Positions 41,085 through 57,550 of a stretch of 64,000 nt of DNA are shown in pieces (positions within the stretch are counted from its first letter, which is position 1; each line of letters starts with the position of its first letter). Under the pieces are notes generated by a model. That model ran no database searches. It had not been told where the DNA came from and saw only the letters and a program-made list of their open reading frames with translations. Both the position numbers and the translations under genes were made by a program. The stretch comes from Porphyromonas pogonae (GTDB taxonomy: Bacteria; Bacteroidota; Bacteroidia; Bacteroidales; Porphyromonadaceae): positions 558,001-622,000 of the forward strand of contig NZ_CP143258.1 of NCBI RefSeq assembly GCF_036320655.1, read 5' to 3'.

Positions 41085-42514
41085 GTCGCCACTTAAAATC
41101 GTGTTTATTTCCTGATATACAGCAAATTGCACTCTTCTATTCTTTGATAAATCTGCAAGTTTTTGTATCTTTGGATGTAGAAACTTGCAGATTTTTTTAT
41201 GATACGCCCTACTCAAACAGTTCAATCACTATTCTCTTCACTGGACGATTTGCTTAACCAGCAACATCCTCTGTATAAACTTTCCCATAAAATCGATTGG
41301 AAAAGGTTCGAAGAGGCTTTTTCTTCCTTGTATTGCCCTGACAATGGTCGTCCCGGTAAGCCTATTCGTTTAATGTGTGGTCTTTTAATTCTCAAGCATT
41401 TGCGCAATATTTCAGATGAATCTGTTGTAGAACAATGGAGTGAGAACGCTTATTTTCAATATTTTTGTGGCATGCAGGAGTTTACTCCTTCCTTTCCCTG
41501 CAATGCCTCGGAACTGGTTCACTTCCGCAAACGTATCGGCGAAAGAGGGATAGAGCTTATTCTTGCAGAAAGTATTCGTGTGAATGATGACAAAAATGAT
41601 AAGGATCACCACGATACCGCTTTTATAGACTCCACCGTGCAGGAAAAGAATGTGACCTATCCTACAGATGCCAAGTTGCATAAGAAGATAGTAGGCAAGG
41701 TTCTCAAAATCGCAAGGGCTCTCAATCTACCCATTCGTCAAAGCTATACTTTCGTATTGAAAAGAATTTATCGGGATCAACGTTTTCGCAACCATCCCAA
41801 GAACCGTAAGAAAGCTCTTAAAGCGGATAAACGGTTACGAACAATAGCGGGACGTTTGGTTCGGGAACTTAAACGAAACCTGGGTAATAACAGGGAGTAC
41901 GACAAACTCATTTCCCTCTTTGAAAGGATTCTTTCGCAACGGCGTAATTCCACTCAAAAGATTTATTCTCTTCATGAACCGGATGTTCAATGCATCAGTA
42001 AAGGTAAGGAGCACAAAAAATATGAGTTTGGAAACAAAGTCTCGATTATACGCTCCATGACGGGAGTGATTTTGGGAGCCTCTTCTTTCCGTAATGAGTA
42101 CGACGGACATACCATAGAGCAAAGCCTCGATCAGGTGAAGAGACTCACGGGAGAAAGGATTAAGAAACTGGCCGGAGATAGAGGTTACCGTGGGAAAAAA
42201 GAAATAAACAGTACGCAAATATTGATTCCAGACACTCCAAAAGCTAAAGACAGTTATTATCAACGTAAAAAGAAGCATCGACTTTTCTGCAAGCGTGCAG
42301 GAATAGAACCAACTATCGGACATTTGAAGTCAGATTATCGCTTGGGACGTAACTTTTACAAAGGGCTCTTCGGGGATGCTATCAATGTAATGTTAGCTGC
42401 AGTGGCATATAACTTCAAAAGAGCCATGAAGCTTCTTTTGTACCTAATAAACAAAATCAGCGAAACACTCCCAATGGAGAGGATTTCGCTGAAATGTGCT
42501 TTTTAAGGGACGAC
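41085..42514 (+). mobile_element. IS5-like insertion sequence, copy 1 (1430 bp)
   Basis: The ends are inverted repeats, GTCGCCACTTAAAA on the left and TTTTTAAGGGACGAC on the right. The outer 6 bp are TAAATA and TATTTA, which are inverted to each other rather than direct copies. This copy therefore lacks a clean target duplication, which hints at recombination. It carries one transposase gene. A second copy of the same length lies at 56121-57550. Confidence 0.88.
41199..42506 (+). CDS. IS5-like DDE transposase, copy 1
   Basis: A 435-aa transposase with an N-terminal DUF772-type domain (CPDNGRPGKPIRLMCGLLILKHLRNISDESVVEQW) and a DDE domain with AFIDSTVQEKN, then LAGDRGYRGKKE and GIEPTIGHLKSDYRLGRNF. 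It differs from copy 2 at four residues that I can see (LGNN/LGSN, EINS/EING, AAVA/AAAA, RISL/RIAL). The frame is intact, so the element may be active. Confidence 0.92.
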   Translation: MIRPTQTVQSLFSSLDDLLNQQHPLYKLSHKIDWKRFEEAFSSLYCPDNGRPGKPIRLMCGLLILKHLRNISDESVVEQWSENAYFQYFCGMQEFTPSFPCNASELVHFRKRIGERGIELILAESIRVNDDKNDKDHHDTAFIDSTVQEKNVTYPTDAKLHKKIVGKVLKIARALNLPIRQSYTFVLKRIYRDQRFRNHPKNRKKALKADKRLRTIAGRLVRELKRNLGNNREYDKLISLFERILSQRRNSTQKIYSLHEPDVQCISKGKEHKKYEFGNKVSIIRSMTGVILGASSFRNEYDGHTIEQSLDQVKRLTGERIKKLAGDRGYRGKKEINSTQILIPDTPKAKDSYYQRKKKHRLFCKRAGIEPTIGHLKSDYRLGRNFYKGLFGDAINVMLAAVAYNFKRAMKLLLYLINKISETLPMERISLKCAF

Positions 42515-42692: not shown

Positions 42693-43622
42693 CTATTTCT
42701 CTCGCCAAACAGGAAGTGATTGCCAATATTTTGGGAATCCCATATCTTTAAGGTCGAGCAGACGGCAATCGAATTTGAGCAATTCCTTGATATTCTTTTT
42801 GAAGTCACTTCCGGGACTGATAATATCAAGGATATACGCGATACAAGAAAGCACTGCAAACAATTTGTTTGTGCGTATTTGTCCGATTGTCGTTCGATCC
42901 ATGAACGGACAAAGAGTGTTGTATGGCAATGTTACGCTAACCATAAAACGGCGATTCCAAGTACGGCTGTGGTGAGCGCAACAATTACGGAGATTGGAAA
43001 TGGCGTGTAGCCATTTCTCTAATATAGCAACTTTCTTCAAACCGAATTGCTCTGTAATGTATTCCTTGCGGTAGTCTAACTTTAAGGATTGGAACAAGCG
43101 GCTCAATGTGGCAAGCGATACAACTTCGAGTGCCATCCAACTTGGTGGCATCGGAGGGTTGTCATACTTAGAACGGTAATGCTTGATGAAATCTTCGTTG
43201 CTACGGTTTACGTCAGCATTGATATGTTCCATCAAATCATCATAGCCGAAACGATACAAACTTTCATCATCGTACCAATGGCTATCACCTGTGCTTTCGG
43301 CATATACCTGTACGATTTTTGTGCGCACTGCCACTTCTATCTTTTCAATAGCATTGAAAATAAGTGAACGCAGTCTGCGGTCAAAACAATAAAGGTCTAT
43401 TATGTCTTTGAAGTGAATATCTTTGCGAGTAAAGTTGTGTTCAGAATCTTCACCATCCTCTTGGAATGGATAAGTGTATGCACGAAGTCGATAGTAACTG
43501 ATATTGAACAAATAAGCGGATGCCTCGCTTTCATCATCGAAAACAAGCCCCCGTTGTTTTAGCCGCGCAACTTGCTCGGCGATGGGCAACGGCTTCTTTG
43601 CATAATCTGTTTTATCAGTCAA
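42693..43622 (-). CDS. Abi_2-family abortive infection protein
   Basis: A 309-aa protein of the Abi_2 (AbiD/AbiF-like) family. It starts YAKKPLPIAEQVARLKQRGLVF, followed by YYRLRAYTYPFQ and, near residue 210, the RNCCAHHSRTWNR segment typical of the family (RNxxAHHxRxWN). Such genes stop phage growth at the cost of the host cell. It lies next to IS copy 1 at the edge of the accessory island. The 178 bp to the IS hold nothing recognisable. Confidence 0.88.
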   Translation of the reverse strand: MTDKTDYAKKPLPIAEQVARLKQRGLVFDDESEASAYLFNISYYRLRAYTYPFQEDGEDSEHNFTRKDIHFKDIIDLYCFDRRLRSLIFNAIEKIEVAVRTKIVQVYAESTGDSHWYDDESLYRFGYDDLMEHINADVNRSNEDFIKHYRSKYDNPPMPPSWMALEVVSLATLSRLFQSLKLDYRKEYITEQFGLKKVAILEKWLHAISNLRNCCAHHSRTWNRRFMVSVTLPYNTLCPFMDRTTIGQIRTNKLFAVLSCIAYILDIISPGSDFKKNIKELLKFDCRLLDLKDMGFPKYWQSLPVWREK

Positions 43623-44103: not shown

Positions 44104-45390
44104 TTAATATAAATCACACTTCGGTTCAATCGTGGCACTGCTATTCCCAGCCGTAGTATTCTGTTTGTATTGGATGATGCCGATAGCCGGGTAGATGGTA
44201 ATATTTTTCAATTGCCAATAGATCCCCGAGTAGAGATAACCCTTGTGCAAAGTTGTATGATAGATCTTGTCGGCATTATTCTGTCGCAAATGCAGGTACT
44301 CATATCTGGCACCCATATTAAATGAACCTCCTAAGATATTAGAGGAGTATACAGCATCTGAGATAAAAGAATAAGTATGGTTTTTGATATTGTTGTCAAG
44401 GTTGTAATTCATTGCCTCATGTGGTGCGAGTAGTTGCTGCCATAGGTGTTGATCTGAGTTTGCTTTAGACCAGGTGTTCACCATATTCAACGCAACAGAG
44501 CGGTTCTTACCCAATAGATAATTGTAGTAAAAGTCTGCTATCCATGACTGCGAATAGCTTTTCAGTTCATTTCCATTACTCCCCTGTATGCGATTTGCCC
44601 CGTCAATAATTTCCACCTCCGCAAGGTTATTTTGTTGGCGAGGATTCCATAAATATTTTATATTGGCATTTAATAGATGTTTTTTCTGAAAGCGCTGATA
44701 TGACATCTGTACAAACTGATAGATACCCTTGTATCGGTTATCTTTTCCTCGGTAAAAAGTCTGTTGTTCTTTGCCATAGTCATAGTGAGAATCGAGGTTG
44801 ATATCGCCAATATTTCGATAGTCAATCAGATGGTTTATTTTTATTTGGTTGAGCGAGTCAGCATAAGTGAGACTTGTTTGGTTAGTCCCAAAGCCTGTGT
44901 TAATAGCATTATTTGTATTGAGATAGGCAGTGTATAATCTGCTTTCATGTTTCTTCATGATAATATTGGCAACGGGACCTGAGGTAAAAGCCATATATCG
45001 GGCAGGTGCTACAGGATAGTATTCGACACTCTTGATATCCTCGCCTTTATAAGTCTTCAGATCAAAAGCTGACGAAGGTATACCATTGATAAGGATGAAC
45101 ACATTTTTATGATCAAACGAAGTTAGTTCGTTCTCATTAAGTTTGGTTCGAAAATAGTTTAGGGACGAAACTGCGTCAAGTGCATTGGTACCGAATTCCC
45201 TGTTTTCCTTGGATAGGTGTAGCAATTGGTGGTCTCCTTTGGCAATGATCTTCTTGGCTTTGATCACCAATTCCTGTAACTTCAGATCTTGTTCGACAGA
45301 GTCTTTACTGGCGTTTTGTGCTTGAGAATTCTGATACAAGGTTACGATACAACAAACACATAAAATAATCATTCTATTTTTTATATTCAT
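44104..45390 (-). pseudogene. Truncated outer-membrane beta-barrel receptor
   Basis: A 428-aa protein with a signal peptide (MNIKNRMIILCVCCIV...SQA), a TonB-receptor-like plug (VFILINGIPSSAFDLK, VEYYPVAPARYM, VANIIMKKH) and then barrel strands that stop early (SATIEPKCDLY). Relatives such as the 776-aa protein at 50310-52640 are nearly twice as long, so the C-terminal half of the barrel is missing. The following ~480 bp (43623-44103) hold no clear gene and may contain decayed remains. It may be a damaged member of the adjacent peptide cluster. Confidence 0.65.
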
Positions 45391-46092: not shown

Positions 46093-46587
46093 TCACTTCA
46101 AGAAGCTGAGGAGACTCTCCAGCAGAGACCCCTGATATTGTGTAAGTATAAAGTCAACAGTCTGTCCTTGCATTTTTATAAGACTATCCTGTGGCAAGCC
46201 GATTATAGCTTCCTGCCTACCCAGCGTATCACGCACGGCAGATAATTTGATGAGTTTTCCTGCAAGATGTCCGTCGGGAGATTGAAGCATCAAGTCAGCC
46301 CCTTCTATCACTTGGGAATTGGGACGCTTTTCTCCAAATATTAGTAACAGCTTTGTTGCTTTAGCATTAGTTTCCAGCTCTCGCTCGGATACTCTTATGA
46401 TAGCTGTGCCGGAATAGACCTGTTTGTAAGGCAAGAAACAGGCTACCCCGAAGAGGCAAAGTAATACTACCCCAATCACGCTGATACCATAGCGAACCAG
46501 CGAGGAGGGAATTTGCCCCACGATACTGCGGACTTTTTCACTGCGAAGCTCGAAGCTTCGCTCTTGTTTCTTTTCTTCTCTGTCCAT
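46093..46587 (-). CDS. Short HlyD-like membrane protein (exporter partner)
   Basis: A 164-aa protein whose N-terminus (FELRSEKVRSIVGQIPSSLVRYGISVIG) matches the start of HlyD-type adaptors found beside Bacteroidota peptide exporters. It has one transmembrane helix at about 32-53 and then a beta-rich periplasmic part. Full adaptors are around 400 aa and have a lipoyl/coiled-coil hairpin that is absent here, so this is either a reduced adaptor or a truncation. Its start lies 1 bp after the ABC gene stop. Confidence 0.7.
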   Translation of the reverse strand: MDREEKKQERSFELRSEKVRSIVGQIPSSLVRYGISVIGVVLLCLFGVACFLPYKQVYSGTAIIRVSERELETNAKATKLLLIFGEKRPNSQVIEGADLMLQSPDGHLAGKLIKLSAVRDTLGRQEAIIGLPQDSLIKMQGQTVDFILTQYQGSLLESLLSFLK

Positions 46588-46588
46588 A

Positions 46589-48799
46589 TCAATTGCCGAG
46601 TTCTAATTGGTTCTTTACCAGGGCAAAGTATTTGCCACGCTTGGCGGTAAGCTCGTCATGTGTACCCACTTCTACGACCTTGCCCTCGTCCAATACCACG
46701 ATCTGATCGGCATGGCGCACCGTGGAGAGGCGATGTGCCACTACGATCACTGTTTTCCCTTGATAGAAATCCGATAGTTTCTCGGTAATGGCTCGCTCGT
46801 TGTTGGCATCAAGCGCATTGGTGGCTTCGTCCAAGAAGACGAACATCGGGTTCTTGTAAACCACCCTTGCTATCAGGATGCGTTGCCGTTGCCCTTGGCT
46901 CACGCCTTGCCCGTCCTGCCCGATCATCGTATTGTAGCCCAGTGGCAGCGCTTCTATATAATCGGCTATGTTTGCCACACGAGCGGCATAGCGGATACGT
47001 TCGATGTCTGGTTCGTCATCCGAGATGGCAATGTTCCTCGCAATGGTGTCGGAGAAGAGATACCCCTCCTGCATAACCGCTCCGCACTGATGCCGCCACC
47101 ATCCCAGATTATAATCACTGAGATTGGCTTTGCCCACTTCGATGGCTCCCGCTATCGGCTCATAGAAGCCGAGCAAGAGTTTGATCAGGGTAGTCTTGCC
47201 GCTACCGCTGGCTCCCACGATGGCTGTTACCTTACCGTTAGGGATCGAGAGATTGATGTCCGAAAGAACGTTCTTAGGACTATAGAGATCGTATTTGAAA
47301 GAAAGGTCTTTGATCGTGAGCGAATGTCCCTCATTGGCTTCACCGGTATAGCTATTCCGTGTCCGCTCGGTATTCTCTTCATTGGTTTCCGTATGGATCT
47401 CATTCATCCTATCCAAACTGATGCTCACGTCCTGCCATGAATAGATGAATTGAATAAGTTGCTCCACAGGATTGTTGAGCTGTCCGATGATGTATTGCAC
47501 GGCGAGCATCATACCCAGTGTCATACTTCCGTGGATTACGGCAGTGGCGGCCAGCACGGTAATGAGGATATTCTTTACCTCGTTGATGGTGATGCTTCCT
47601 GCCTGCTGTACTTGTTGCAGGTTGAGGGATTGTAGATTAACCTTGAAGAGGTCGGCTTGTACATCCTCCCACTCCCAGCGTTTGCGCTGCTCGCATCCTT
47701 GTAGCTTGATTTCCTGCATACCTCCTATCAGCTGGTAGGTCACATTGCGGTTGCGCCCTGCTTGCTCGAAGTATTTGTAATCCAGCGTGCGCCTTTTCTT
47801 CAAAAAGAGGATTATCCAGCCTGCATAGATGAGTGTGCCGACGAGAAAGACCAAGAAAATACCGAGATTGTACACCGCCAGCACGATGCCAAAGATGATA
47901 AAGGTAAAGAATGAGAAGAGCAAGCTCAGACTACTCGAGGTCAGAAACTGCTCCACCCTACGGTGGTCTTCGATGCGTTGCAAGAGATCGCCCATGAGCT
48001 TCGTATCGAAGAACTTCATCGGAAGCTTCATCAGCTTGATAAAGAAGTCTGAGATGAGCGAGATGTTGATACGAGTAGAGATGTGCAGAAGTATCTTGGA
48101 ACGTATGAAGTCAATGGCCGTACGGCTGAAAAGGAGCATCATCTCAGCCAAAAGGACAAGCCATACGAAGCCTATATCCTTGCCTCCAATACCTGTGTCA
48201 ACAATGGATTGTGTCAGGAAAGGAAAGATGAGTTGTAGTAGAGAGCCAAGTAGCAAGCCCAATATCAGTTGGGTGAAGAAACGTTTGTATTTCCGAAGAT
48301 AACTCCACAGAAATCCAACACGCTTTTTCTTTGGACTATTGTCTGTATGCTCTTGTTGGTAAAATTGCTCAGTAGGTTCCAGAAGCAGTGCAATACCCTT
48401 TCCCTCTCCATTGGTTTGGGTGCTAACCCAATGTTCGCAGAACTCTTCCTTGGTATAGGTTACAAGTCCTTTCCCCGGATCGGCCACATAGACAGTATAT
48501 TCCCCTTTCTTGTGCTTCTTTATCTTATAAACAACGACAAAATGGTTTTGATCCCAATGCACAATGCAAGGTTGTGTTATATCCTTTGCAAGAGAGGTGA
48601 AGTTTAGTCGTCCTCCCATGGTTTTAAAACCAATCTCTTCTGCAGCCTTACTAATCCCCAAGAGTGAAACACCATCTTTTCCTTGGTCACAAAACTTACT
48701 TAAGGCCTCCAAACTGGGATGTCGTCCATAGTGACTAATCACCATAGCTAAACTCACTGTTCCACAATTCATAGCATCTCGCTGTTTTATAAAGATCAT
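46589..48799 (-). CDS. Peptidase-containing ABC exporter (C39-PCAT)
   Basis: A 736-aa bacteriocin-type exporter that cuts the leader after Gly-Gly and exports the core peptide. The C39 peptidase domain at 1-135 has Cys12 (RDAMNCGT), His86 (DQNHFVVVY) and Asp107 (VADPGKG). Six transmembrane helices follow at about 170-440. The ATPase has Walker A GASGSGKTTL, signature SQGQRQRI and Walker B FVFLDEATNALD. Its DNA looks clearly richer in G+C than the genes upstream in the operon, suggesting a different origin. The matching substrate is the GG peptide at 55921. Confidence 0.95.
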   Translation of the reverse strand: MIFIKQRDAMNCGTVSLAMVISHYGRHPSLEALSKFCDQGKDGVSLLGISKAAEEIGFKTMGGRLNFTSLAKDITQPCIVHWDQNHFVVVYKIKKHKKGEYTVYVADPGKGLVTYTKEEFCEHWVSTQTNGEGKGIALLLEPTEQFYQQEHTDNSPKKKRVGFLWSYLRKYKRFFTQLILGLLLGSLLQLIFPFLTQSIVDTGIGGKDIGFVWLVLLAEMMLLFSRTAIDFIRSKILLHISTRINISLISDFFIKLMKLPMKFFDTKLMGDLLQRIEDHRRVEQFLTSSSLSLLFSFFTFIIFGIVLAVYNLGIFLVFLVGTLIYAGWIILFLKKRRTLDYKYFEQAGRNRNVTYQLIGGMQEIKLQGCEQRKRWEWEDVQADLFKVNLQSLNLQQVQQAGSITINEVKNILITVLAATAVIHGSMTLGMMLAVQYIIGQLNNPVEQLIQFIYSWQDVSISLDRMNEIHTETNEENTERTRNSYTGEANEGHSLTIKDLSFKYDLYSPKNVLSDINLSIPNGKVTAIVGASGSGKTTLIKLLLGFYEPIAGAIEVGKANLSDYNLGWWRHQCGAVMQEGYLFSDTIARNIAISDDEPDIERIRYAARVANIADYIEALPLGYNTMIGQDGQGVSQGQRQRILIARVVYKNPMFVFLDEATNALDANNERAITEKLSDFYQGKTVIVVAHRLSTVRHADQIVVLDEGKVVEVGTHDELTAKRGKYFALVKNQLELGN

Positions 48800-48845
48800 A
48801 GCCTATTCAATGTAAAATAACAGAGGAAATATAAACAACTATTTC

Positions 48846-49655
48846 TTAAATTAAATTGAATTTTGTCTTCCATGGCCAATGGTCTATATACTCCTTTAGA
48901 GCTGTCCTTGACATACTACATACTTTAAGTAATTCTTTTTCTAATAATATCCCTCTAGAATCCATTCCTGAAATCGAATTTATGCCTCTTGGATGATACA
49001 AATGGTATGCATTGCCATATACACGCTCAATGCGATTCCCTAGGATTAGGGTTCGCTTAGCTCGCTCTATATCTTCTGGTCCCCAGCCATAAAAATATTG
49101 ATTTTCTCCTCCTATACTCAAATATTTAGTTTTACTCACAAAGAAAGCCCCTCCATAAGATGGTCTACTAAATTGTATCAGTGATTGTTTTTTAAGATAT
49201 AAGTAGTTGAAAAGATCATCTTGGGTCATTTGTTGAGATATTAGATGTCTAGATGTTGAAGAATCTAAAAAGATAATCCCTTTAGTATAGGGATATACAA
49301 GTGTGCATTCCTCTTCTTTGAATATTTTAGTAGCCTTCTGAATCTGAATATTTGGAATGATGACATCAGTGTCCCAGATTCCACAAATTTCATTTTTACT
49401 GGATACAATTAGCTGATTAATATACTTTGTTCGATGAAATATAGGGTCATTGTCATAAATAAAAATATGCCTAAATAATTTGCCTAGAGGAATAGATAAG
49501 CGACTATGTGTGTCTGCTTCTAGGATAAGGATCTCATCAATATAAGGGAAAAAAGAGAGGTGCTTTATTACATACAATAAGTTTGATAGTCTTTCTTGAC
49601 TATCTACTCTAATAGGTATTAATACAGATATATATTTTATATTTGATGTATACAT
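48846..49655 (-). CDS. Galactosyltransferase-like family protein (GT-A fold)
   Basis: A 269-aa soluble protein with a GT-A layout: ISVLIPIRVDSQERLSNL at the N-terminus, a DxD-like metal motif in GIWDTDVIIP, and the C-terminal acceptor motif GGENQYFYGWGPEDIERAKR. This last motif is typical of the galactosyltransferase C-terminal domain shared with polypeptide-GalNAc-transferase-like enzymes. The donor sugar cannot be read from the sequence. Its position inside the peptide operon suggests it glycosylates the peptide or extends a first sugar. Confidence 0.78.
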   Translation of the reverse strand: MYTSNIKYISVLIPIRVDSQERLSNLLYVIKHLSFFPYIDEILILEADTHSRLSIPLGKLFRHIFIYDNDPIFHRTKYINQLIVSSKNEICGIWDTDVIIPNIQIQKATKIFKEEECTLVYPYTKGIIFLDSSTSRHLISQQMTQDDLFNYLYLKKQSLIQFSRPSYGGAFFVSKTKYLSIGGENQYFYGWGPEDIERAKRTLILGNRIERVYGNAYHLYHPRGINSISGMDSRGILLEKELLKVCSMSRTALKEYIDHWPWKTKFNLI

Positions 49656-49677
49656 GGAGTATATTATTAATGTGATT

Positions 49678-50310
49678 TTAACGTGGATATGGGTCTATAT
49701 TTTTCCGGTTTAATTTTAGAACAACTCTTCTCTTATATGGATAAATATACCGCTTGAGATCATGTAGCTCATCCTTTAATAACCCAATATGAAGGAGTCG
49801 CTCTATTAAATAGAAAACATGATGAGCTGTAAGGAGACACACTCTCTCGCTTTTTACTGATTCAGACAACCAGTCAATAAAGAATATGATATACTGTGCG
49901 ATGGTCAACTCTTTAAGATTATCACAGTCTTGAATATTTAGATTTTTACACCTTAAATAAAGATAATAACCAACACCACAGATCCCATTTCCAAGTGATG
50001 TTCCAGTAAGCAATCTTTTGTCAACTATTTTCATCGCAATAGAATCCAGTTCATAAATTAGTGGCATAAAATCATTATCTAGAATACCATCATTGAATAG
50101 CAATAAGATTCCACAGCCGATACCAATAATACCATCATCGTAATTTAATTTCTGAAAAATACATGGAGTCTGTAATAAATTGCGTAGTTGTGATTTACAT
50201 TCTTCAACCTTTGGGGAGATGTTAGATGAACTAAAGCATAATGTTTCGACAATATCTCTCATTTGTCCTTTATTGCTCATCCCTAACGAATTATATGCTT
50301 GCATAGCCAT
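49678..50310 (-). CDS. LanC-like protein lacking zinc ligands
   Basis: A 210-aa protein with two LanC-type alpha/alpha-toroid repeats: YDDGIIGIGCGILLLF and TSLGNGICGVGYYLYLR. True LanC cyclases are ~400 aa and have a Cys and a Cys-His pair that bind zinc; no CH pair is present. It may be a scaffold or half-toroid that works with the GT-LanC fusion upstream. Its ATG overlaps the stop of the barrel gene by one base (TAATG), so translation is coupled. Confidence 0.6.
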   Translation of the reverse strand: MAMQAYNSLGMSNKGQMRDIVETLCFSSSNISPKVEECKSQLRNLLQTPCIFQKLNYDDGIIGIGCGILLLFNDGILDNDFMPLIYELDSIAMKIVDKRLLTGTSLGNGICGVGYYLYLRCKNLNIQDCDNLKELTIAQYIIFFIDWLSESVKSERVCLLTAHHVFYLIERLLHIGLLKDELHDLKRYIYPYKRRVVLKLNRKNIDPYPR

Positions 50311-52640
50311 TACTTAAGTGTTCCACTATCAGAGTCCGAATTGTAAATATATCTATCGCTTGCTTCGAATCGCTTACCTGAGTGCAAGCTGATAGATAAC
50401 GAGAGATAAAAGGTGTTTCGGAAACTATCATTGAAACTACGAATTGAGGTATTGTAGCTATCTGCTAGATACTCCTTTTTACTTGTGAATCTACTCGCAT
50501 TAGTCATATAACCAAGTCCAATCTTATAATTGTGCTTTCGATAATCTATTCCTATATTAATGAGACCATTCCCTCTATAAAAAGATTCACCATTGAGGTT
50601 TGCTTGGTCTGAACGGTAGTTAGCCCAATACTTCAAATTTTTATGATTGTATGAAATGCTGGTATCATAGGAAAATGCTGTTCGTTTGTGGTTGTAAGTC
50701 TGAGACTTTGTTTGCATCAGGCGGAGTCCGCAACCTACTCCAACATTAAGTTTGCTATCAAGTAAAGAGCTTGATAGCCCGAAGTTAATATGGAATTGGT
50801 GATATTTGTCGGCATTGATAAGTTGTCGAATAATTTTATCGCCTTCTCCTTTATAGCTCTCCATAATGCTACCACTAGCGTAAGAGTCAAAAAGGCTGAG
50901 TGACAGCTTGTACCGCTTGGGTGAGTATGTAAAGCCCAACTGATTAATGAACTGATTATATGGTTTAAGGCTTGGGTTACCTCTGTGTATCACATAGCTA
51001 CTTACCGGATACTCTATCATATTACTCTCCCCTGTCGAGAATTTCTGAACCCTTACGCTACCGGAGTACCTAACCTGAAGACTTCTGCTTAGGAGTAGAG
51101 ACAGATTTAGCTGTGGTGTAATAAAATGTGATCTATTGAGGGCTGTATGCTCCTGTTTTTGTATATATAGAGTGTAGCCAAGTCCAAGGCTATAGACGAG
51201 CTTATTGTATACTCCCTTCCATTGAGCATAGGTGTAGGTATTATAATTCTTTAGCTCAATTTCTCTAGCGAGGGTCGTTGTATTCGTGAGTTCATTACGA
51301 TTTGTTCCCATTGAGTAATTAATCCCAGTAATCAACTGGCCACTCTTGAGTGAAGTTTGCCAGAAAACATCCCCAATAACCGAATATCTACTTCCGTCAA
51401 CGGCTGTAGAAATTTCATTTCTAAGATGCTCCTCATAACGCTCTCGCAGTTTATTTGAGGACGAGGAGGTAAAGGCGTTACCAACTATGTTTACGGCAAA
51501 TATATTTTTGTTGAATAACCTCTGATAATACAAATCAAAGGAAGGCTTTAGCTCCCTATATCGTCGCTCTTGATTATTGGATAGTGTTATAGGTCGTTGG
51601 ACATCATTCATTCTTTCTAACATCATCACCCTTTCATTGGATTTCTCTTTCCAGTAATCATATGAGACCTTCATCAAGAAGAATGTTTTGTCTAGGTCTG
51701 TATAGTTATAATGTAATGTGACTGTTGCGTAATCCTCCTTGAAGCTCGAAGGAATTCCTCTAATTTCTCTGCTTATTATTTTATCACTCGGGAACCGATA
51801 GTACTCTTTCCCCTCTGAATAACTTTTGGCATACTGATGTACTGTCCCTGATACACTCACCCCCAACTCAGATTTCCTCCAGTTATACGACATGTCTCCA
51901 TAAATATCTCCCCAAAGAGTGTGGAAGGTATTTCGAGAATCCCATGTTACTGCGATTCCGTGTATAGGCTCTTTAAGGATAATATCTATTACAGCTTCTG
52001 CATCACCATACCTCATTGAGGGGAAATCGTGATACTCAACTCTTTTTATTTGGTAGGGTGCTATCCTTAGATAATCTTTTTGGCTTGCAGGTGTCCCATT
52101 AATACGGACTAAAAGTTTCCCTTGTCGAGAAGTGCTGATACGATTCTGTGAAGGATCTATGTATAGACCCTGTATCATCATATTACCTAACACATCAATA
52201 GCATTACTTGCTCCCTTAAGTTGCGGAGTAGTTGGATAGAGGACTTGTTTGTCAATATGAGTCGTGCTTGAGAAAGGAGCCTCAATGACTACTTCTTCTA
52301 GGATTGAGGTCCTTGTCTTTACGATAATTTCTCCTAAATTGAGTGTTTCTCTAATGTGATTCAGATTTAGCTTGATAGTCTCAATAGCTACAGTCGCAAT
52401 AAATAATTCATAGCTCCGACCTTGTACTACACTAAATTTGAAATTTCCGAGCGAGTCAGTTATCTGAATGTCGGTTCTTTTGCTTTCGTCTAGGGATATG
52501 AGACGGATAGGAATTTGTGCAATCCCTATATGCTCTCCCTTTGTAGATTTAAGTCGTCCAGTAATGAACAAATTCTGTGCGGAGACGGAATATAGAGAAG
52601 TCAAGAACATAATCAAAAATAATAAGCACTTAGAGTTCAT
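50310..52640 (-). CDS. TonB-receptor-like outer-membrane protein of the peptide operon
   Basis: A 776-aa outer-membrane protein starting MNSKCLLFLIMFLTSLYSVSAQ (signal peptide). A carboxypeptidase-regulatory-like domain follows (FITGRLKSTKGEHIGIAQIPI), then a plug (LLVRINGTPASQKDY, AEAVIDIILKEP) and a large beta-barrel. It sits within the exporter operon, so it may carry the peptide across the outer membrane or take up a ligand linked to it. The start overlaps the upstream gene by 11 bp (ATGAACTCTAA), which decides against the longer frame at 52682. Confidence 0.82.
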   Translation of the reverse strand: MNSKCLLFLIMFLTSLYSVSAQNLFITGRLKSTKGEHIGIAQIPIRLISLDESKRTDIQITDSLGNFKFSVVQGRSYELFIATVAIETIKLNLNHIRETLNLGEIIVKTRTSILEEVVIEAPFSSTTHIDKQVLYPTTPQLKGASNAIDVLGNMMIQGLYIDPSQNRISTSRQGKLLVRINGTPASQKDYLRIAPYQIKRVEYHDFPSMRYGDAEAVIDIILKEPIHGIAVTWDSRNTFHTLWGDIYGDMSYNWRKSELGVSVSGTVHQYAKSYSEGKEYYRFPSDKIISREIRGIPSSFKEDYATVTLHYNYTDLDKTFFLMKVSYDYWKEKSNERVMMLERMNDVQRPITLSNNQERRYRELKPSFDLYYQRLFNKNIFAVNIVGNAFTSSSSNKLRERYEEHLRNEISTAVDGSRYSVIGDVFWQTSLKSGQLITGINYSMGTNRNELTNTTTLAREIELKNYNTYTYAQWKGVYNKLVYSLGLGYTLYIQKQEHTALNRSHFITPQLNLSLLLSRSLQVRYSGSVRVQKFSTGESNMIEYPVSSYVIHRGNPSLKPYNQFINQLGFTYSPKRYKLSLSLFDSYASGSIMESYKGEGDKIIRQLINADKYHQFHINFGLSSSLLDSKLNVGVGCGLRLMQTKSQTYNHKRTAFSYDTSISYNHKNLKYWANYRSDQANLNGESFYRGNGLINIGIDYRKHNYKIGLGYMTNASRFTSKKEYLADSYNTSIRSFNDSFRNTFYLSLSISLHSGKRFEASDRYIYNSDSDSGTLK

Positions 52641-54324
52641 AACTAAATTTTTTACTATAATTACCAATTGTTTCATACTCAAAAAATCTTAGCTCAGATA
52701 TACCTACACCTGCTAGACCATCAAGCCCCAAAGTGTATTTCGTTATGTCGAGGGGAGACGGAGTGTAAAAATAGGAAATATCAAATAAAGATGGTTTCAC
52801 TTCAATAAAGTCTTCAATGTTTATTAAATAAAAAAAGAATGTTCTAATTGATTGATACTCTGAAATAAAATGGGCTATATAGCCTCTCAGATCCAGAGAA
52901 ATGGGTTTTTCTTTCTCTATAAAAAGTCTGCATTCAAGGTATAATCCAATTGCATCTCTTAGGGTGATATTGTCACTTAACTGGTCTTTTAAGATATTAT
53001 TTAATAGTACATCGTCAATAAGCTCTATAAACTTTTCCATATCTATATCTAGTAAATGATATGTATTAACATACACCAAAAACCATCCCATTTCAAACAA
53101 TAAAACCTCATTGGATTTTATCATATTTAGAATTTCTTTAATTGTCTGGGTTGAATATGTCTCTGCAATCTGCTGAATAATAGAGCTTTGTTTTACTCTA
53201 GCATAAATGAGTAGATATAGTATACACCCCAAACGCCCTGAAAGCAAACCTAGTTCTCCAATATTGTGATAATTAGATATTATTCTTGATGTAATAGACT
53301 CGAGCTGTGATGCAGTATCTTGTCGTCCGCATTCAATGAGAAAGGCACGTGTGTTCATATCAATAATCTGCTCTATTGATTTTCCTCCTTTACTAAGATA
53401 AATATTTCGTTCTCTTTTTATCCAGTCTAAATTGTTATAAAACTCGAATAAAATAGATACTAAAATATCTTCGTCTGTAAAAGATTTAGCGGAGAGGTAT
53501 CCTTTAATATAGGGACATGGCAGGAAAAGCAATGATAAAAATAGAGAATTATAGAGCTGACTTTGCTTACTTATAGCATATGGTGCTCTATTTCTGTATA
53601 TATGCCCGATATATACATCCTCAATCATAACAGGAATTACTCCAGATAACCAAGCCTTAATACTTAAATAAGGCTCGTCAAGTCCATATTCTCTTAATCC
53701 ATATACCCCACCCAATTTTTGCCAAATCTCCTTAGAGAAAGTGTATGTAGCCCCTAAAATACAAAGTAAGGGTATCTCTTGAGGTCTAATCTTGTAAGGA
53801 TGGGCTAGAGATAGGATGCCTTGATGTTTGTAAAAACACCATCTAGGCTCAAACAAACGATCTAGCTCAATAAAATTGACGTATGCTCCATAAGATAAGT
53901 GATCCTCATCATGTTGAAGTATTTGATTCTTTTCATTTTTTCTTAAAACGACAGTTTGGGTGCAAATAAGCCGTCTAGAATCTTCCTCTAAATGCTTTAA
54001 TAGGCGAGACAACCAATCACTTTGATAAAATCTCATATGGGCATCAAGAAGCATAACATACAGACATGAAGCCATCTCTACGCCAATATTGCGTGATGAA
54101 GCAACACCTAACCTTATGGGGTTTTTAACATATATAACATCATAAAAGCTACATACTATTTTATAATCATAACCGTCATTTGAAGCATCATCTATAACAA
54201 TAACTTCTAATGCACCTTTGGCTGTATGGTTAAAAAGGCTATCGAACGTATTTTTGAGTTCATCTCCCTCATTGTGTAGTGTAATTATTACCGAGAGCTT
54301 TGTTGTTGTTTTTAGTCGTGGCAT
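52630..54324 (-). CDS. Glycosyltransferase fused to a LanC-like domain
   Basis: A 564-aa two-domain protein. Residues about 8-260 are a GT2/GT27-type transferase: LSVIITLHNEGDELKNTFDSL, IDDASNDGYD, the metal site MLLDAHMRF (compare DSHCE in polypeptide GalNAc-transferases) and EYGLDEPYLSIKAWLSG. Residues about 320-564 look LanC-like, with GELGLLSGRLGCILYLLIYA and YTLGLDGLAGVGISELRF, but no CH zinc pair. The fusion suggests the toroid presents the peptide to the transferase. The ATG at 54324 overlaps the radical SAM stop by 13 bp; the frame upstream to 54417 is overlap. Confidence 0.78.
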   Translation of the reverse strand: MPRLKTTTKLSVIITLHNEGDELKNTFDSLFNHTAKGALEVIVIDDASNDGYDYKIVCSFYDVIYVKNPIRLGVASSRNIGVEMASCLYVMLLDAHMRFYQSDWLSRLLKHLEEDSRRLICTQTVVLRKNEKNQILQHDEDHLSYGAYVNFIELDRLFEPRWCFYKHQGILSLAHPYKIRPQEIPLLCILGATYTFSKEIWQKLGGVYGLREYGLDEPYLSIKAWLSGVIPVMIEDVYIGHIYRNRAPYAISKQSQLYNSLFLSLLFLPCPYIKGYLSAKSFTDEDILVSILFEFYNNLDWIKRERNIYLSKGGKSIEQIIDMNTRAFLIECGRQDTASQLESITSRIISNYHNIGELGLLSGRLGCILYLLIYARVKQSSIIQQIAETYSTQTIKEILNMIKSNEVLLFEMGWFLVYVNTYHLLDIDMEKFIELIDDVLLNNILKDQLSDNITLRDAIGLYLECRLFIEKEKPISLDLRGYIAHFISEYQSIRTFFFYLINIEDFIEVKPSLFDISYFYTPSPLDITKYTLGLDGLAGVGISELRFFEYETIGNYSKKFSYEL

Positions 54325-55799
54325 AATGATTGGTCGAATTGAGGAGCATATATGCAGCGGGGATCTGGGTAATCCCATCCGCTTTTTCCATAGGCTTTGA
54401 TAATGTCTGCAATACACCTATTTCCATAGCTGAAGCAGTCTCTCCTAATTTCACATATAGAACAAGGGCTATTGCTAATAGTTTTATTAGGAATAAAATG
54501 ATATAATTCTTTAGCTCTTGCAGAGTTCCAAACATCAAAGATCGAAGTCGTAGGTTCTGATAAGTCTCCTATTATAAACTCTGGGAGCCAATATAATTGT
54601 TCACATATAGTAACTTTGCCATCAGGAAGTACTATCATATTGGAAATATTTGCAGAACATCTAGCTCCTTTGAAGAACCGGCTTCCTTGATATTCTGTTC
54701 TGTATTTGCTGTCTTGGTCAGGAGACCAAAGTATATTGAGTCTACTATTAACTCTAGTTTGCTTAATCCATTCCACTATAGTAGTTATTGAATCCCTCTT
54801 TGATTTAATGAGGTCAAAATTGGCTCTTGAATACAGAGATCGGAATCCTACTCTGATTTCCCATCGCTCTAAGTTTTTAAGGGTTTCTAGGAATAATTTA
54901 AGCGATTCTAAATTTGGGATATTATCATTATAATTTGTCAATACAGTTGCTATTTGATAATGAACACCCATTTCATCCAGCAGTCTTATAGACTTAATTA
55001 ATTTATCTGAATACAGAGATTCTACTTTTAACATGCTTTTTTGCGTATCAGAGTCAAGTGAATCTAAGGAAACTTGCACTCGGATTCCAAGAGTTTGGAT
55101 AGTCTCAATATCTGGTTTTTTTAGGGGGTACTTAGTAGAGAGTAAGTCGGGCTTATAACCTTTTTCACAAAGAAAGGAAACCAATTCTTTCCAATTATAA
55201 TAAGTGAAAATATCTCCACCAGTTAATATTAGATTTCCCACCCCAATATCAGCTGCTTCTTCTATGATTTCTTTGATGCGATAAAACGACATTTCCTTGT
55301 ATTGAGTTTCCGTATCCGCATAGCAATATACACATTTTGTGAAGCATTTATTGGTAGGCATAATCACTATAGACAATGGAGCGTTGAATGGTCTGTCCCT
55401 TTTTAGATCAACTTCATCAAATATGAAACTTTTTAGTTCATACGATTGGGGAGACATAAAGGCTTTACTTTCAGGGATAATTAGACCTATAGGAAAGCCA
55501 CTGATACCTTCTTTTAATCTAGAATGCAACGGGTTCTTAGCATAAATTAGATTGTTGATAAAATTGCTTATGGCTTTCTCCTCTATACCGATGAGTTGAG
55601 AGATTTTTCTATTAGCTTCATCAAGATTAATTGGAGCTGAAAATACAGATAATATCATCGCATATATAGGATGAATTACGGAAACCCATCCTATATTAAT
55701 AGATATTGAAGATTCATAATTAACATTACCTTGAGCAATGATATAGCATCTCTTTGAATCGTTTCGAAGTTTATAGTAGTGGTTAAGTATGTATTTCAT
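54312..55799 (-). CDS. Radical SAM/SPASM peptide-modifying enzyme
   Basis: A 495-aa radical SAM enzyme. The N-terminal ~140 residues may hold a peptide-binding region. The 4Fe4S motif CxxxCxxC is in KCFTKCVYCY at about 152-159, with the GGD-type SAM motif in LILTGGDIFTYY. The C-terminal SPASM domain has many cysteines (ARCSANISN, VTICEQLYW, SPCSICEIRRDCF, DPRC) for auxiliary clusters. Such enzymes make thioether or other cross-links in precursor peptides. It is the first enzyme gene after the Cys-rich peptide. The start MKYILNHYYKLRN at 55799 is chosen over 55847. Confidence 0.88.
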   Translation of the reverse strand: MKYILNHYYKLRNDSKRCYIIAQGNVNYESSISINIGWVSVIHPIYAMILSVFSAPINLDEANRKISQLIGIEEKAISNFINNLIYAKNPLHSRLKEGISGFPIGLIIPESKAFMSPQSYELKSFIFDEVDLKRDRPFNAPLSIVIMPTNKCFTKCVYCYADTETQYKEMSFYRIKEIIEEAADIGVGNLILTGGDIFTYYNWKELVSFLCEKGYKPDLLSTKYPLKKPDIETIQTLGIRVQVSLDSLDSDTQKSMLKVESLYSDKLIKSIRLLDEMGVHYQIATVLTNYNDNIPNLESLKLFLETLKNLERWEIRVGFRSLYSRANFDLIKSKRDSITTIVEWIKQTRVNSRLNILWSPDQDSKYRTEYQGSRFFKGARCSANISNMIVLPDGKVTICEQLYWLPEFIIGDLSEPTTSIFDVWNSARAKELYHFIPNKTISNSPCSICEIRRDCFSYGNRCIADIIKAYGKSGWDYPDPRCIYAPQFDQSLCHD

Positions 55800-55920
55800 A
55801 TGAATAATAATTAAAAAAATACACCAAGAGAAGCCATTCTGCTTCAATGAATTACTTCTCTTGGCTAATCTCCATATAAGGGAACTCCCATCCTTAAAAG
55901 GATTATATCGCCCTTGGATT

Positions 55921-56118
55921 TTATGGACCTACAGCACTCGTACACCAAGCACCTCCACTACAAAGCTCTTTTGCTCCAGCTCTTTTTTCTGCGCATACGT
56001 AGCTTTGGCAACCATCTTCAAGCAGATATCCTCCCTTAAGAGTTAGGAGCTGCTCGCTTGAGATCTTCCCTTCACCAAATAAATCAGTGAGTTTGATTTT
56101 TAGTTGTTCATTGTTATT
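55921..56118 (-). CDS. Cys-rich double-glycine precursor peptide (start codon missing)
   Basis: A 65-residue frame outside the IS. The leader has hydrophobics at -12, -7 and -4 (Ile, Leu, Leu) before Lys-Gly-Gly (SSEQLLTLKGG), the standard double-glycine pattern cut by C39 exporters. The core of 35 residues has four Cys spaced CX4CX10CX5C (GCQSYVCAEKR... ELCSGGAWCTSAVGP). No ATG, GTG or TTG is in frame back to a stop inside the adjoining IS at 56121, so the native start seems lost or displaced. It lies 121 bp upstream of the radical SAM gene. Confidence 0.75.
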   Translation of the reverse strand, partial: NNNEQLKIKLTDLFGEGKISSEQLLTLKGGYLLEDGCQSYVCAEKRAGAKELCSGGAWCTSAVGP

Positions 56119-56120
56119 TA

Positions 56121-57550
56121 GTCGCCCCTTAAAATCGTGTTTATTTTCTGATATACAGCAAATTGCACTCTTCTATTCTTTGATAAATCTGCAAGTTTTT
56201 GTATCTTTGGATATAGAAACTTGCAGATTTTTTTATGATACGCCCTACTCAAACAGTTCAATCTCTGTTCTCTTCGCTGGACGATTTGCTCAACCAGCAA
56301 CATCCTCTGTATAAACTTTCCCATAAAATCGATTGGAAAAGGTTCGAAGAGGCTTTTTCTTCCTTGTATTGCCCTGACAATGGTCGTCCAGGTAAGCCTA
56401 TTCGTTTAATGTGTGGTCTTTTAATTCTCAAGCATTTGCGCAATATTTCAGATGAATCTGTTGTAGAACAATGGAGTGAGAACGCTTATTTTCAATATTT
56501 TTGTGGCATGCAGGAGTTTACACCTTCCTTTCCCTGCAATGCCTCGGAACTGGTTCACTTCCGCAAACGTATCGGCGAAAGAGGGATAGAGCTTATTCTT
56601 GCAGAAAGTATTCGTGTGAATGATGACAAAAATGATAAGGATCACCACGATACCGCTTTTATAGACTCCACCGTGCAGGAAAAGAATGTGACCTATCCTA
56701 CAGATGCCAAGTTGCATAAGAAGATAGTAGGCAAGGTTCTCAAAATCGCAAGGGCTCTCAATCTACCCATTCGTCAAAGCTATACTTTCGTATTGAAAAG
56801 AATTTATCGGGATCAACGTTTTCGCAACCATCCCAAGAACCGTAAGAAAGCTCTTAAAGCGGATAAACGGTTACGAACAATAGCGGGACGTTTGGTTCGG
56901 GAACTTAAACGAAACCTAGGTAGTAACAGGGAGTACGACAAACTCATTTCCCTCTTTGAAAGGATTCTTTCGCAACGGCGTAATTCCACTCAAAAGATTT
57001 ATTCTCTTCATGAACCGGATGTTCAATGCATCAGTAAAGGTAAGGAGCACAAAAAATATGAGTTTGGAAACAAAGTCTCGATTATACGCTCCATGACGGG
57101 AGTGATTTTGGGAGCCTCTTCTTTCCGTAATGAGTACGACGGACATACCATAGAGCAAAGCCTCGATCAGGTGAAGAGACTCACGGGAGAAAGGATTAAG
57201 AAACTGGCCGGAGATAGAGGTTACCGTGGAAAAAAAGAAATAAACGGTACGCAGATATTGATTCCTGACACTCCAAAAGCTAAAGACAGTTATTATCAAC
57301 GTAAAAAGAAGCATCGACTTTTCTGCAAGCGTGCAGGAATAGAACCAACTATCGGACATTTAAAATCAGATTATCGCTTGGGACGTAACTTTTACAAAGG
57401 GCTCTTCGGGGATGCTATCAATGTAATGTTAGCTGCAGCGGCATATAACTTCAAAAGAGCCATGAAGCTTCTTTTGTACCTAATAAACAAAATCAGCGAA
57501 ACACTCCCAATGGAGAGGATTGCGCTGAAATGTGCTTTTTAAGGGACGAC
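56121..57550 (+). mobile_element. IS5-like insertion sequence, copy 2 (1430 bp)
   Basis: Same length, ends and orientation as copy 1. Both flanks read TATTTA, consistent with a target duplication of up to 6 bp. The left end touches the 5' side of the precursor peptide gene. On the far side, the minus strand has an ATGATGGGTAATC start-like sequence, but that frame meets a stop before the peptide frame. Confidence 0.9.
56235..57542 (+). CDS. IS5-like DDE transposase, copy 2
   Basis: A 435-aa intact transposase, about 99% identical to copy 1 by eye. The same DDE landmarks are present (AFIDSTVQEKN, LAGDRGYRGKKE, GIEPTIGHLKSDYR). Confidence 0.92.
   Translation: MIRPTQTVQSLFSSLDDLLNQQHPLYKLSHKIDWKRFEEAFSSLYCPDNGRPGKPIRLMCGLLILKHLRNISDESVVEQWSENAYFQYFCGMQEFTPSFPCNASELVHFRKRIGERGIELILAESIRVNDDKNDKDHHDTAFIDSTVQEKNVTYPTDAKLHKKIVGKVLKIARALNLPIRQSYTFVLKRIYRDQRFRNHPKNRKKALKADKRLRTIAGRLVRELKRNLGSNREYDKLISLFERILSQRRNSTQKIYSLHEPDVQCISKGKEHKKYEFGNKVSIIRSMTGVILGASSFRNEYDGHTIEQSLDQVKRLTGERIKKLAGDRGYRGKKEINGTQILIPDTPKAKDSYYQRKKKHRLFCKRAGIEPTIGHLKSDYRLGRNFYKGLFGDAINVMLAAAAYNFKRAMKLLLYLINKISETLPMERIALKCAF

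Follow-up and report, generated by a model that had tools for sequence, protein, structure and literature searches.

What is made by the minus-strand operon at positions 46093–56112 of a 64,000-nucleotide stretch of the Porphyromonas pogonae genome, where a radical SAM (rSAM) enzyme stands beside glycosyltransferases (GTs), LanC-like domains and a peptide exporter? The stretch, below called the window, covers positions 558001–622000 of the single-contig 2.92-Mb genome, and the operon in it consists of seven intact large genes and a reading frame for a GG/Cys-rich precursor. We read it, with a probability of roughly 0.6, as an operon for the biosynthesis and export of a ribosomally synthesized and post-translationally modified peptide (RiPP) of the rSAM type, equipped with glycosylation modules. 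It is a variant among the rSAM RiPP clusters, set apart by its glycosylation and export modules, and the copy present here is probably disabled.

From the 5' end, the order is the precursor frame, the rSAM/SPASM enzyme, a fusion of a GT with a LanC-like domain (GT-LanC), an outer-membrane barrel, a 210-aa protein, a GT7-like enzyme, a C39 ABC exporter and a 164-aa HlyD-like protein. Domain matches and the positions of the open reading frames (ORFs) place all of them on the minus strand, as the preliminary description had it. Its claim of tight packing holds in part: with the likely starts, the rSAM and GT-LanC genes overlap by about 10 bp, GT-LanC and the barrel by about 11 bp, and the barrel and the 210-aa protein by 1 bp, the remaining gaps being 22, 46 and 1 bp, but 121 bp separate the precursor from the rSAM gene. 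The core order precursor–rSAM–barrel–C39–HlyD is found again in other genomes, and since many genomes hold relatives with the same core order, the operon is not a chance assembly. The earlier suggestion of an operon dedicated to modifying and exporting a peptide is supported.

The rSAM/SPASM peptide maturase (54312–55799, ORF open to 55847) has an N-terminal domain of about 140 aa, and its CxxxCxYC motif and SPASM cysteines are conserved. It matches PF04055 (E 3.6e-17) and PF13186. As in sactipeptides and ranthipeptides, the SPASM rSAM enzyme here adjoins a Cys-rich core. The window enzyme has 57 NCBIfam matches, the best of 60.3 bits being to a family other than TIGR04148; the latter is not among the best 25 of the 57, all below 61 bits. 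The family seems to be uncurated in NCBIfam, because no equivalog scores above its cut-off with the window rSAM or with any of nine relatives. Maturation of a quinohemoprotein or of PQQ was considered and rejected, as only weak generic rSAM matches, far below the cut-offs, were obtained.

When the species genomes of GTDB were scanned with the rSAM alignment, 140 relatives came up, and the loci of 79 of them were read; here and below, L with a number designates a locus. Nearly all of the 79 are from the Bacteroidota. Four (L110, L111, L122, L152) carry Lachnospiraceae labels, which are likely binning errors, as the L111 rSAM is identical to that of the Bacteroidales bin L109. The enzyme is present in 12 of the 393 genomes sampled from the order, and among the 38 genomes of the family that were searched it occurs in this one alone. 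In the rSAM tree of 77 rows, Palleniella muris is the partner of the window (47% identity, support 100/99), and the two sit in a supported clade with 13 members, L083 and L084 among them. These rSAM/SPASM RiPP clusters, to which the operon belongs, form a large family that apparently has no name. Plasmids and phages yielded only distant rSAM matches. On a Paenibacillus peoriae plasmid (L037, 11553–13439), the related rSAM, a distant Bacillota relative of the family, is broken in two frames, and two small Cys-rich ORFs that lack a GG leader come before it. Three loci with close relatives of the window rSAM (L078, L079, L082) have, after the rSAM gene, secreted-looking proteins of about 500 aa, perhaps peptidases or parts of another system type, in place of the barrel and the exporter. 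In L084 (1222–14779), a TIGR04148 rSAM, a TIGR04150 pseudo-rSAM and a window-type rSAM surround one window-type precursor, GT-LanC and C39 genes being in the same cluster.

The precursor reading frame (55921–56112) has a leader (...KIKLTDLFGEGKISSEQLLTLKGG) and a core, YLLEDGCQSYVCAEKRAGAKELCSGGAWCTSAVGP; the whole frame reads LKIKLTDLFGEGKISSEQLLTLKGG and then YLLEDGCQSYVCAEKRAGAKELCSGGAWCTSAVGP, and is open back as far as 56172. It is homologous to the precursors of L075–L085 (phmmer E from 1e-7 to 7e-5). In the alignment of near relatives, the window included, the GG, four core cysteines and one serine are invariant, and most of the peptides end in C-x-SG[VI]G or a near variant of this. The match to TIGR04149 is weak, 14.5 bits at a cut-off of 25. 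The rule for candidate precursors was a GG 12–60 residues in, at least two later cysteines, a charged leader and a position near the rSAM gene; such candidates are seen in 68 of the 79 loci, or about 66, as those of L145 and L148 look false. Hence a consistent lack of a GG precursor in homologous loci, which the preliminary description had named as what would refute its reading, is not seen. The operon has the short leader-plus-core precursor beside modifying enzymes, conserved in relatives, that is expected of a RiPP gene cluster, although the window copy has no start codon. In four loci (L030, L034, L125, L141) the rSAM gene is followed by GG precursors in tandem, two or three of them, with CxxxC repeats, and a small protein resembling the formylglycine enzyme by eye is found in the same group (L030, 2415–3155; L034, 7504–8241).

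The missing start speaks against the tacit assumption of an intact precursor in this genome. A single ATG lies nearby, at 56111, and it is shifted by one base relative to the precursor frame. About 10 bp before it ends an insertion sequence with a 435-aa transposase (56121–57550, plus strand), which has a 6-bp TATTTA target duplication on both sides and separates the operon from the upstream DNA. Because of the absent start codon and the insertion sequence just upstream, this copy of the cluster is probably impaired and the pathway silent or non-productive here, unless a rare start codon is used or the sequence contains an error. An explanation at about even odds goes further: the operon would be the decaying, functionless remnant of a once active rSAM RiPP system, its precursor frameshifted and cut off by the insertion sequence. 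It is consistent with the state of the precursor and the clean target duplication, and also with the lack of a second precursor copy in the genome searched, where the element has about 20 near-full-length copies, and of the rSAM in the remaining 37 family genomes that were searched. A further point for decay is a C-terminally truncated paralogue of the barrel downstream of the operon (44104–45390, minus strand; 428 aa of about 780), probably a remnant and perhaps left from a second barrel; the barrels of L022, L029 and L034 match it too. However, all seven large genes have intact frames and conserved catalytic residues, the damage to the precursor could be a sequencing error or reflect a non-standard start codon, and the insertion sequence could supply transcription. 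Decay is in any case compatible with the enzyme roles that we assign.

At its other end, the region is bordered by a further copy of this insertion sequence (41085–42514, plus strand). Most copies in the genome have 6-bp duplications of the TAnnTA type. The pair does not make a simple composite transposon, since the outer flanks do not match (TAAATA vs TATTTA) and only the copy at 56121–57550 has a matching pair of duplications. An empty insertion site could not be demonstrated in the single-contig relatives of the genus, where the two flanks of the operon are not neighbours. An abortive-infection-like protein of the Abi_2 family (42693–43622; PF07751, E 8e-56) is encoded between this left copy and the operon; it has homologues in L106 and L110, both of which contain related rSAM clusters. 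With 2.92 Mb, the genome exceeds the others of its genus in size (1.4–2.5 Mb; 26 genus genomes in the set).

The export genes are the C39 peptidase-containing ABC exporter (46589–48799), which has the Cys, His and Asp residues and is expected to cleave GG leaders, the short periplasmic adaptor (46093–46587), and the TonB-receptor-like outer-membrane barrel (50310–52640, ORF open to 52682), with a carboxypeptidase-regulatory-like domain and a plug region. The relative of the barrel in L100 matches PF14905/PF00593. The "HlyD-like" protein of 164 aa is a short form with a single transmembrane segment and no Pfam match. A long HlyD-type adaptor, as in type I systems with TolC, is absent from the operon. 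Full-length C39 exporters were sorted by the gene with transmembrane segments directly downstream, short (less than 260 aa, 31 loci) or long (18 loci), and the barrel was detected with a model built from barrels of these same loci. A same-strand barrel within 3 kb accompanies 26 of the 31 short adaptors vs 1 of the 18 long ones (Fisher 6e-8, with kinship between the loci ignored). The sole long case with a barrel, L118, has a 681-aa gene that is probably not HlyD, so its removal would sharpen the contrast; some of the short cases (60–83 aa) are possibly fragments or unrelated membrane proteins. In L085, which has a long HlyD, a TolC-like gene is seen by eye next to it.

Since the barrel goes with the short HlyD, this association supports the barrel as a dedicated exit channel, as had been proposed from the sequence of the window. 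The other role to consider is that of an uptake or immunity receptor. TonB-receptor-like proteins usually import, a plug-like region is seen in the barrel by eye, and in some loci with long HlyD a barrel is present further off. Yet the strong tie is to an adaptor too short for the usual hairpin that reaches TolC, and we hold a receptor to be rather unlikely. The idea of export through a barrel of this type is not new: TonB-receptor-like proteins have been proposed as exporters of Bacteroidetes graspetides (PMC8939145). The clusters of that study resemble the operon in GG leaders, a SPASM enzyme and the suggested use of a TonB-receptor-like protein for export; the difference is the ATP-grasp ligase, which the operon lacks.

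Two GTs are encoded in the operon. The fused one (52630–54321, ORF open to 54417) combines a GT domain of family 2, similar to GT27 polypeptide GalNAc-transferases, with a C-terminal helical domain, half of a LanC-like domain. Its best sequence matches in PDB are polypeptide GalNAc-transferases (E 2.5e-10; 6e-13 for the L095 relative), and these are also the closest by predicted fold (E about 1e-14), the GT part being well modelled and giving the only confident fold matches, while the C-terminal part is poor in places. Across seven relatives, DxH, GHxxR and PY do not vary. The catalytic domain with DxH and GHxxR is thus that of GT27, but the place of the C-terminal ricin-type lectin domain is taken by the LanC-like one. 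The likeness to GT27 makes glycosylation of the peptide by the fused enzyme plausible. It strengthens the glycosylation that the preliminary description thought possible; the sugars and cross-links themselves we infer.

The second GT (48846–49655) is similar to GT7/beta-1,4-galactosyltransferases, with the Glyco_transf_7C domain and DTD and GWGPE motifs, and recurs beside LanC-like genes. Next to it is the 210-aa LanC-like half-domain protein (49678–50310), without zinc-ligand motifs. The two form a separate recurring pair: in L162 and L163 they adjoin each other next to C39, HlyD and a GG peptide, while L164, a short contig, has the pair beside another GT. The model of the 210-aa protein has pLDDT 59 and weak fold matches only, the lanthipeptide cyclase MadC ranking first with E 0.13. 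The link of a LanC-like half domain to GT7 in L028 is suggestive only (probability 13.7, E 0.002). The LanC-like parts of the window proteins themselves have no match in Pfam, so the label comes through a chain of homology: the C-terminal domain of GT-LanC is homologous to its counterpart in L084 (2e-12), which passes PF05147 (Pfam LANC_like), and in L095 the LanC domain is of full length (104 bits).

GT-LanC directly follows the rSAM gene in the window, in L083, where it is interrupted near the contig end, and in L084; in L095 the order is rSAM–GT–GT–(GT-LanC), with the fusion three genes on. The first search of genome contigs with GT-LanC alone as the query gave no match. The fusion is present in other settings too: in L051 it occurs with a TIGR04148 rSAM, a TIGR04150 pseudo-rSAM and a TIGR04149 precursor, and in L052 it is beside a GG peptide that is over the TIGR04149 cut-off and has a weaker lanthipeptide-leader match. 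These neighbourhoods, and the fact that the nearest solved structures are peptide glycosyltransferases, argue against the GTs building a surface or capsule glycan and sharing the operon by chance. Such a role is improbable, although glycan synthesis often involves GT2 and GT7-like folds and L028 and L095 contain several further GTs.

The LanC-like domains and the Ser, Thr and Cys of the core might recall a true lanthipeptide system with its dehydratase elsewhere in the genome, but this is very improbable, and the preliminary description was right to set it aside, since no LanB/LanM dehydratase is found among the operon proteins (the rest of the genome was not searched), CHG and WCxG zinc motifs are absent from all twelve LanC-like proteins of the set, and the conserved partner is an rSAM enzyme. 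As the zinc-less domains pair with two unlike types of GT, they suggest a role in holding the peptide rather than cyclising it.

Several known systems resemble the operon. In mycofactocin biosynthesis, the rSAM enzyme MftC and the glycosyltransferase MftF act on a ribosomal peptide. The window GT scores 42.7 bits with TIGR03965, far below the cut-off of 280, and the peptide, export and domain make-up differ. Eukaryotic GT27 enzymes share with the GT domain its sequence, predicted fold and the DxH and GHxxR..PY motifs, but have a lectin domain in place of the LanC-like one. The GG-Bacteroidales systems (TIGR04148 rSAM, TIGR04149 precursor, TIGR04150 pseudo-rSAM) have in common with the window GG Cys-containing precursors, a SPASM rSAM, C39, HlyD and GTs, and the one in L051 also GT-LanC and a zinc-less LanC. 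However, the window rSAM belongs to another family, the precursor is below the TIGR04149 cut-off, no operon protein matches the pseudo-rSAM TIGR04150, seen in L051 and L084, and the window has the barrel and the short HlyD.

Published work does not bear out the initial view that no such set was known. Fernandez-Cantos et al. 2023 (PMC10352776) list 41 areas with rSAM, LanC and GlyS, an S-glycosyltransferase, in 1,136 Bacteroidales genomes; LanC lacks the zinc motif, LanB is absent, GG precursors are linked with C39 exporters, and the authors considered it likely that such LanC proteins take no part in lanthipeptide synthesis. BGC3–5 of that study share with the window the rSAM, the zinc-motif-less LanC-like protein, the glycosyltransferase and the lack of LanB; they differ in having pseudo-rSAMs, and BGC3 and BGC5 in having no C39 exporter. 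The GT-LanC fusion, the relation to GT27 and the dedicated barrel, all features of the window, are not reported for BGC3–5 in the sections read. The open-access literature yielded nothing specific on GT27-like or LanC-fused GTs in RiPPs. In L052 (10029–19998), two proteins beside GT-LanC, unmatched by NCBIfam, read like a split LanB; if they are one, this would be a dehydratase in Bacteroidales, which PMC10352776 reports as absent.

Gene content, the precursor family, fold assignments, the absence of zinc motifs and the association of the short HlyD with the barrel come from these comparisons; the type of cross-link, the sugar, the order of the steps and the barrel's part in the exit we infer. 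The rSAM enzyme would bind the leader, probably through its N-terminal domain, and would cross-link the cysteine-rich core, most likely by thioethers. Sugars would be added by the GT27-like/LanC-like fusion and by the GT7-like enzyme together with the LanC-like protein next to it, the zinc-less domains holding the peptide without cyclisation. The C39 exporter would then cut after GG and take the product through the inner membrane. From there, the short HlyD-like protein may pass it to the barrel, which would replace TolC. As to the role of the product, our guess is competition, with a bacteriocin or a signal as options.

Against this reading weigh the complete absence of ATG, GTG and TTG from the open frame of the window precursor, the neglect of kinship in the export comparison and the usual importing role of TonB-receptor-like proteins. 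Further, similarity to GT27 does not prove a peptide acceptor or a GalNAc donor, and GT-LanC is present in only 3 of the 77 tree rows besides the window, hence an accessory rather than a core trait; as the rSAM tree requires three changes, it was gained or lost repeatedly. A bolder generalisation is tentative, and we consider it more likely wrong than right: zinc-less LanC-like domains might be a general peptide-holding module for bacterial GTs of the GalNAc-transferase and galactosyltransferase types, replacing the animal lectin domain, and together with a SPASM rSAM might yield a cross-linked RiPP with mucin-type-like glycosylation, whose way out would be a dedicated TonB-receptor-like barrel served by a shortened adaptor.

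For the Bacteroidales of the gut and the oral cavity, the analysis indicates a wide family of rSAM RiPP clusters, apparently uncurated, whose precursors are testable; as there are relatives in which the precursor start is intact, tests do not depend on the window genome. It suggests a possible job for the rSAM-associated zinc-less LanC proteins of these bacteria, as partners of a peptide glycosyltransferase, and predicts that a TonB-receptor-like barrel can be the outer-membrane exit for C39-exported peptides.

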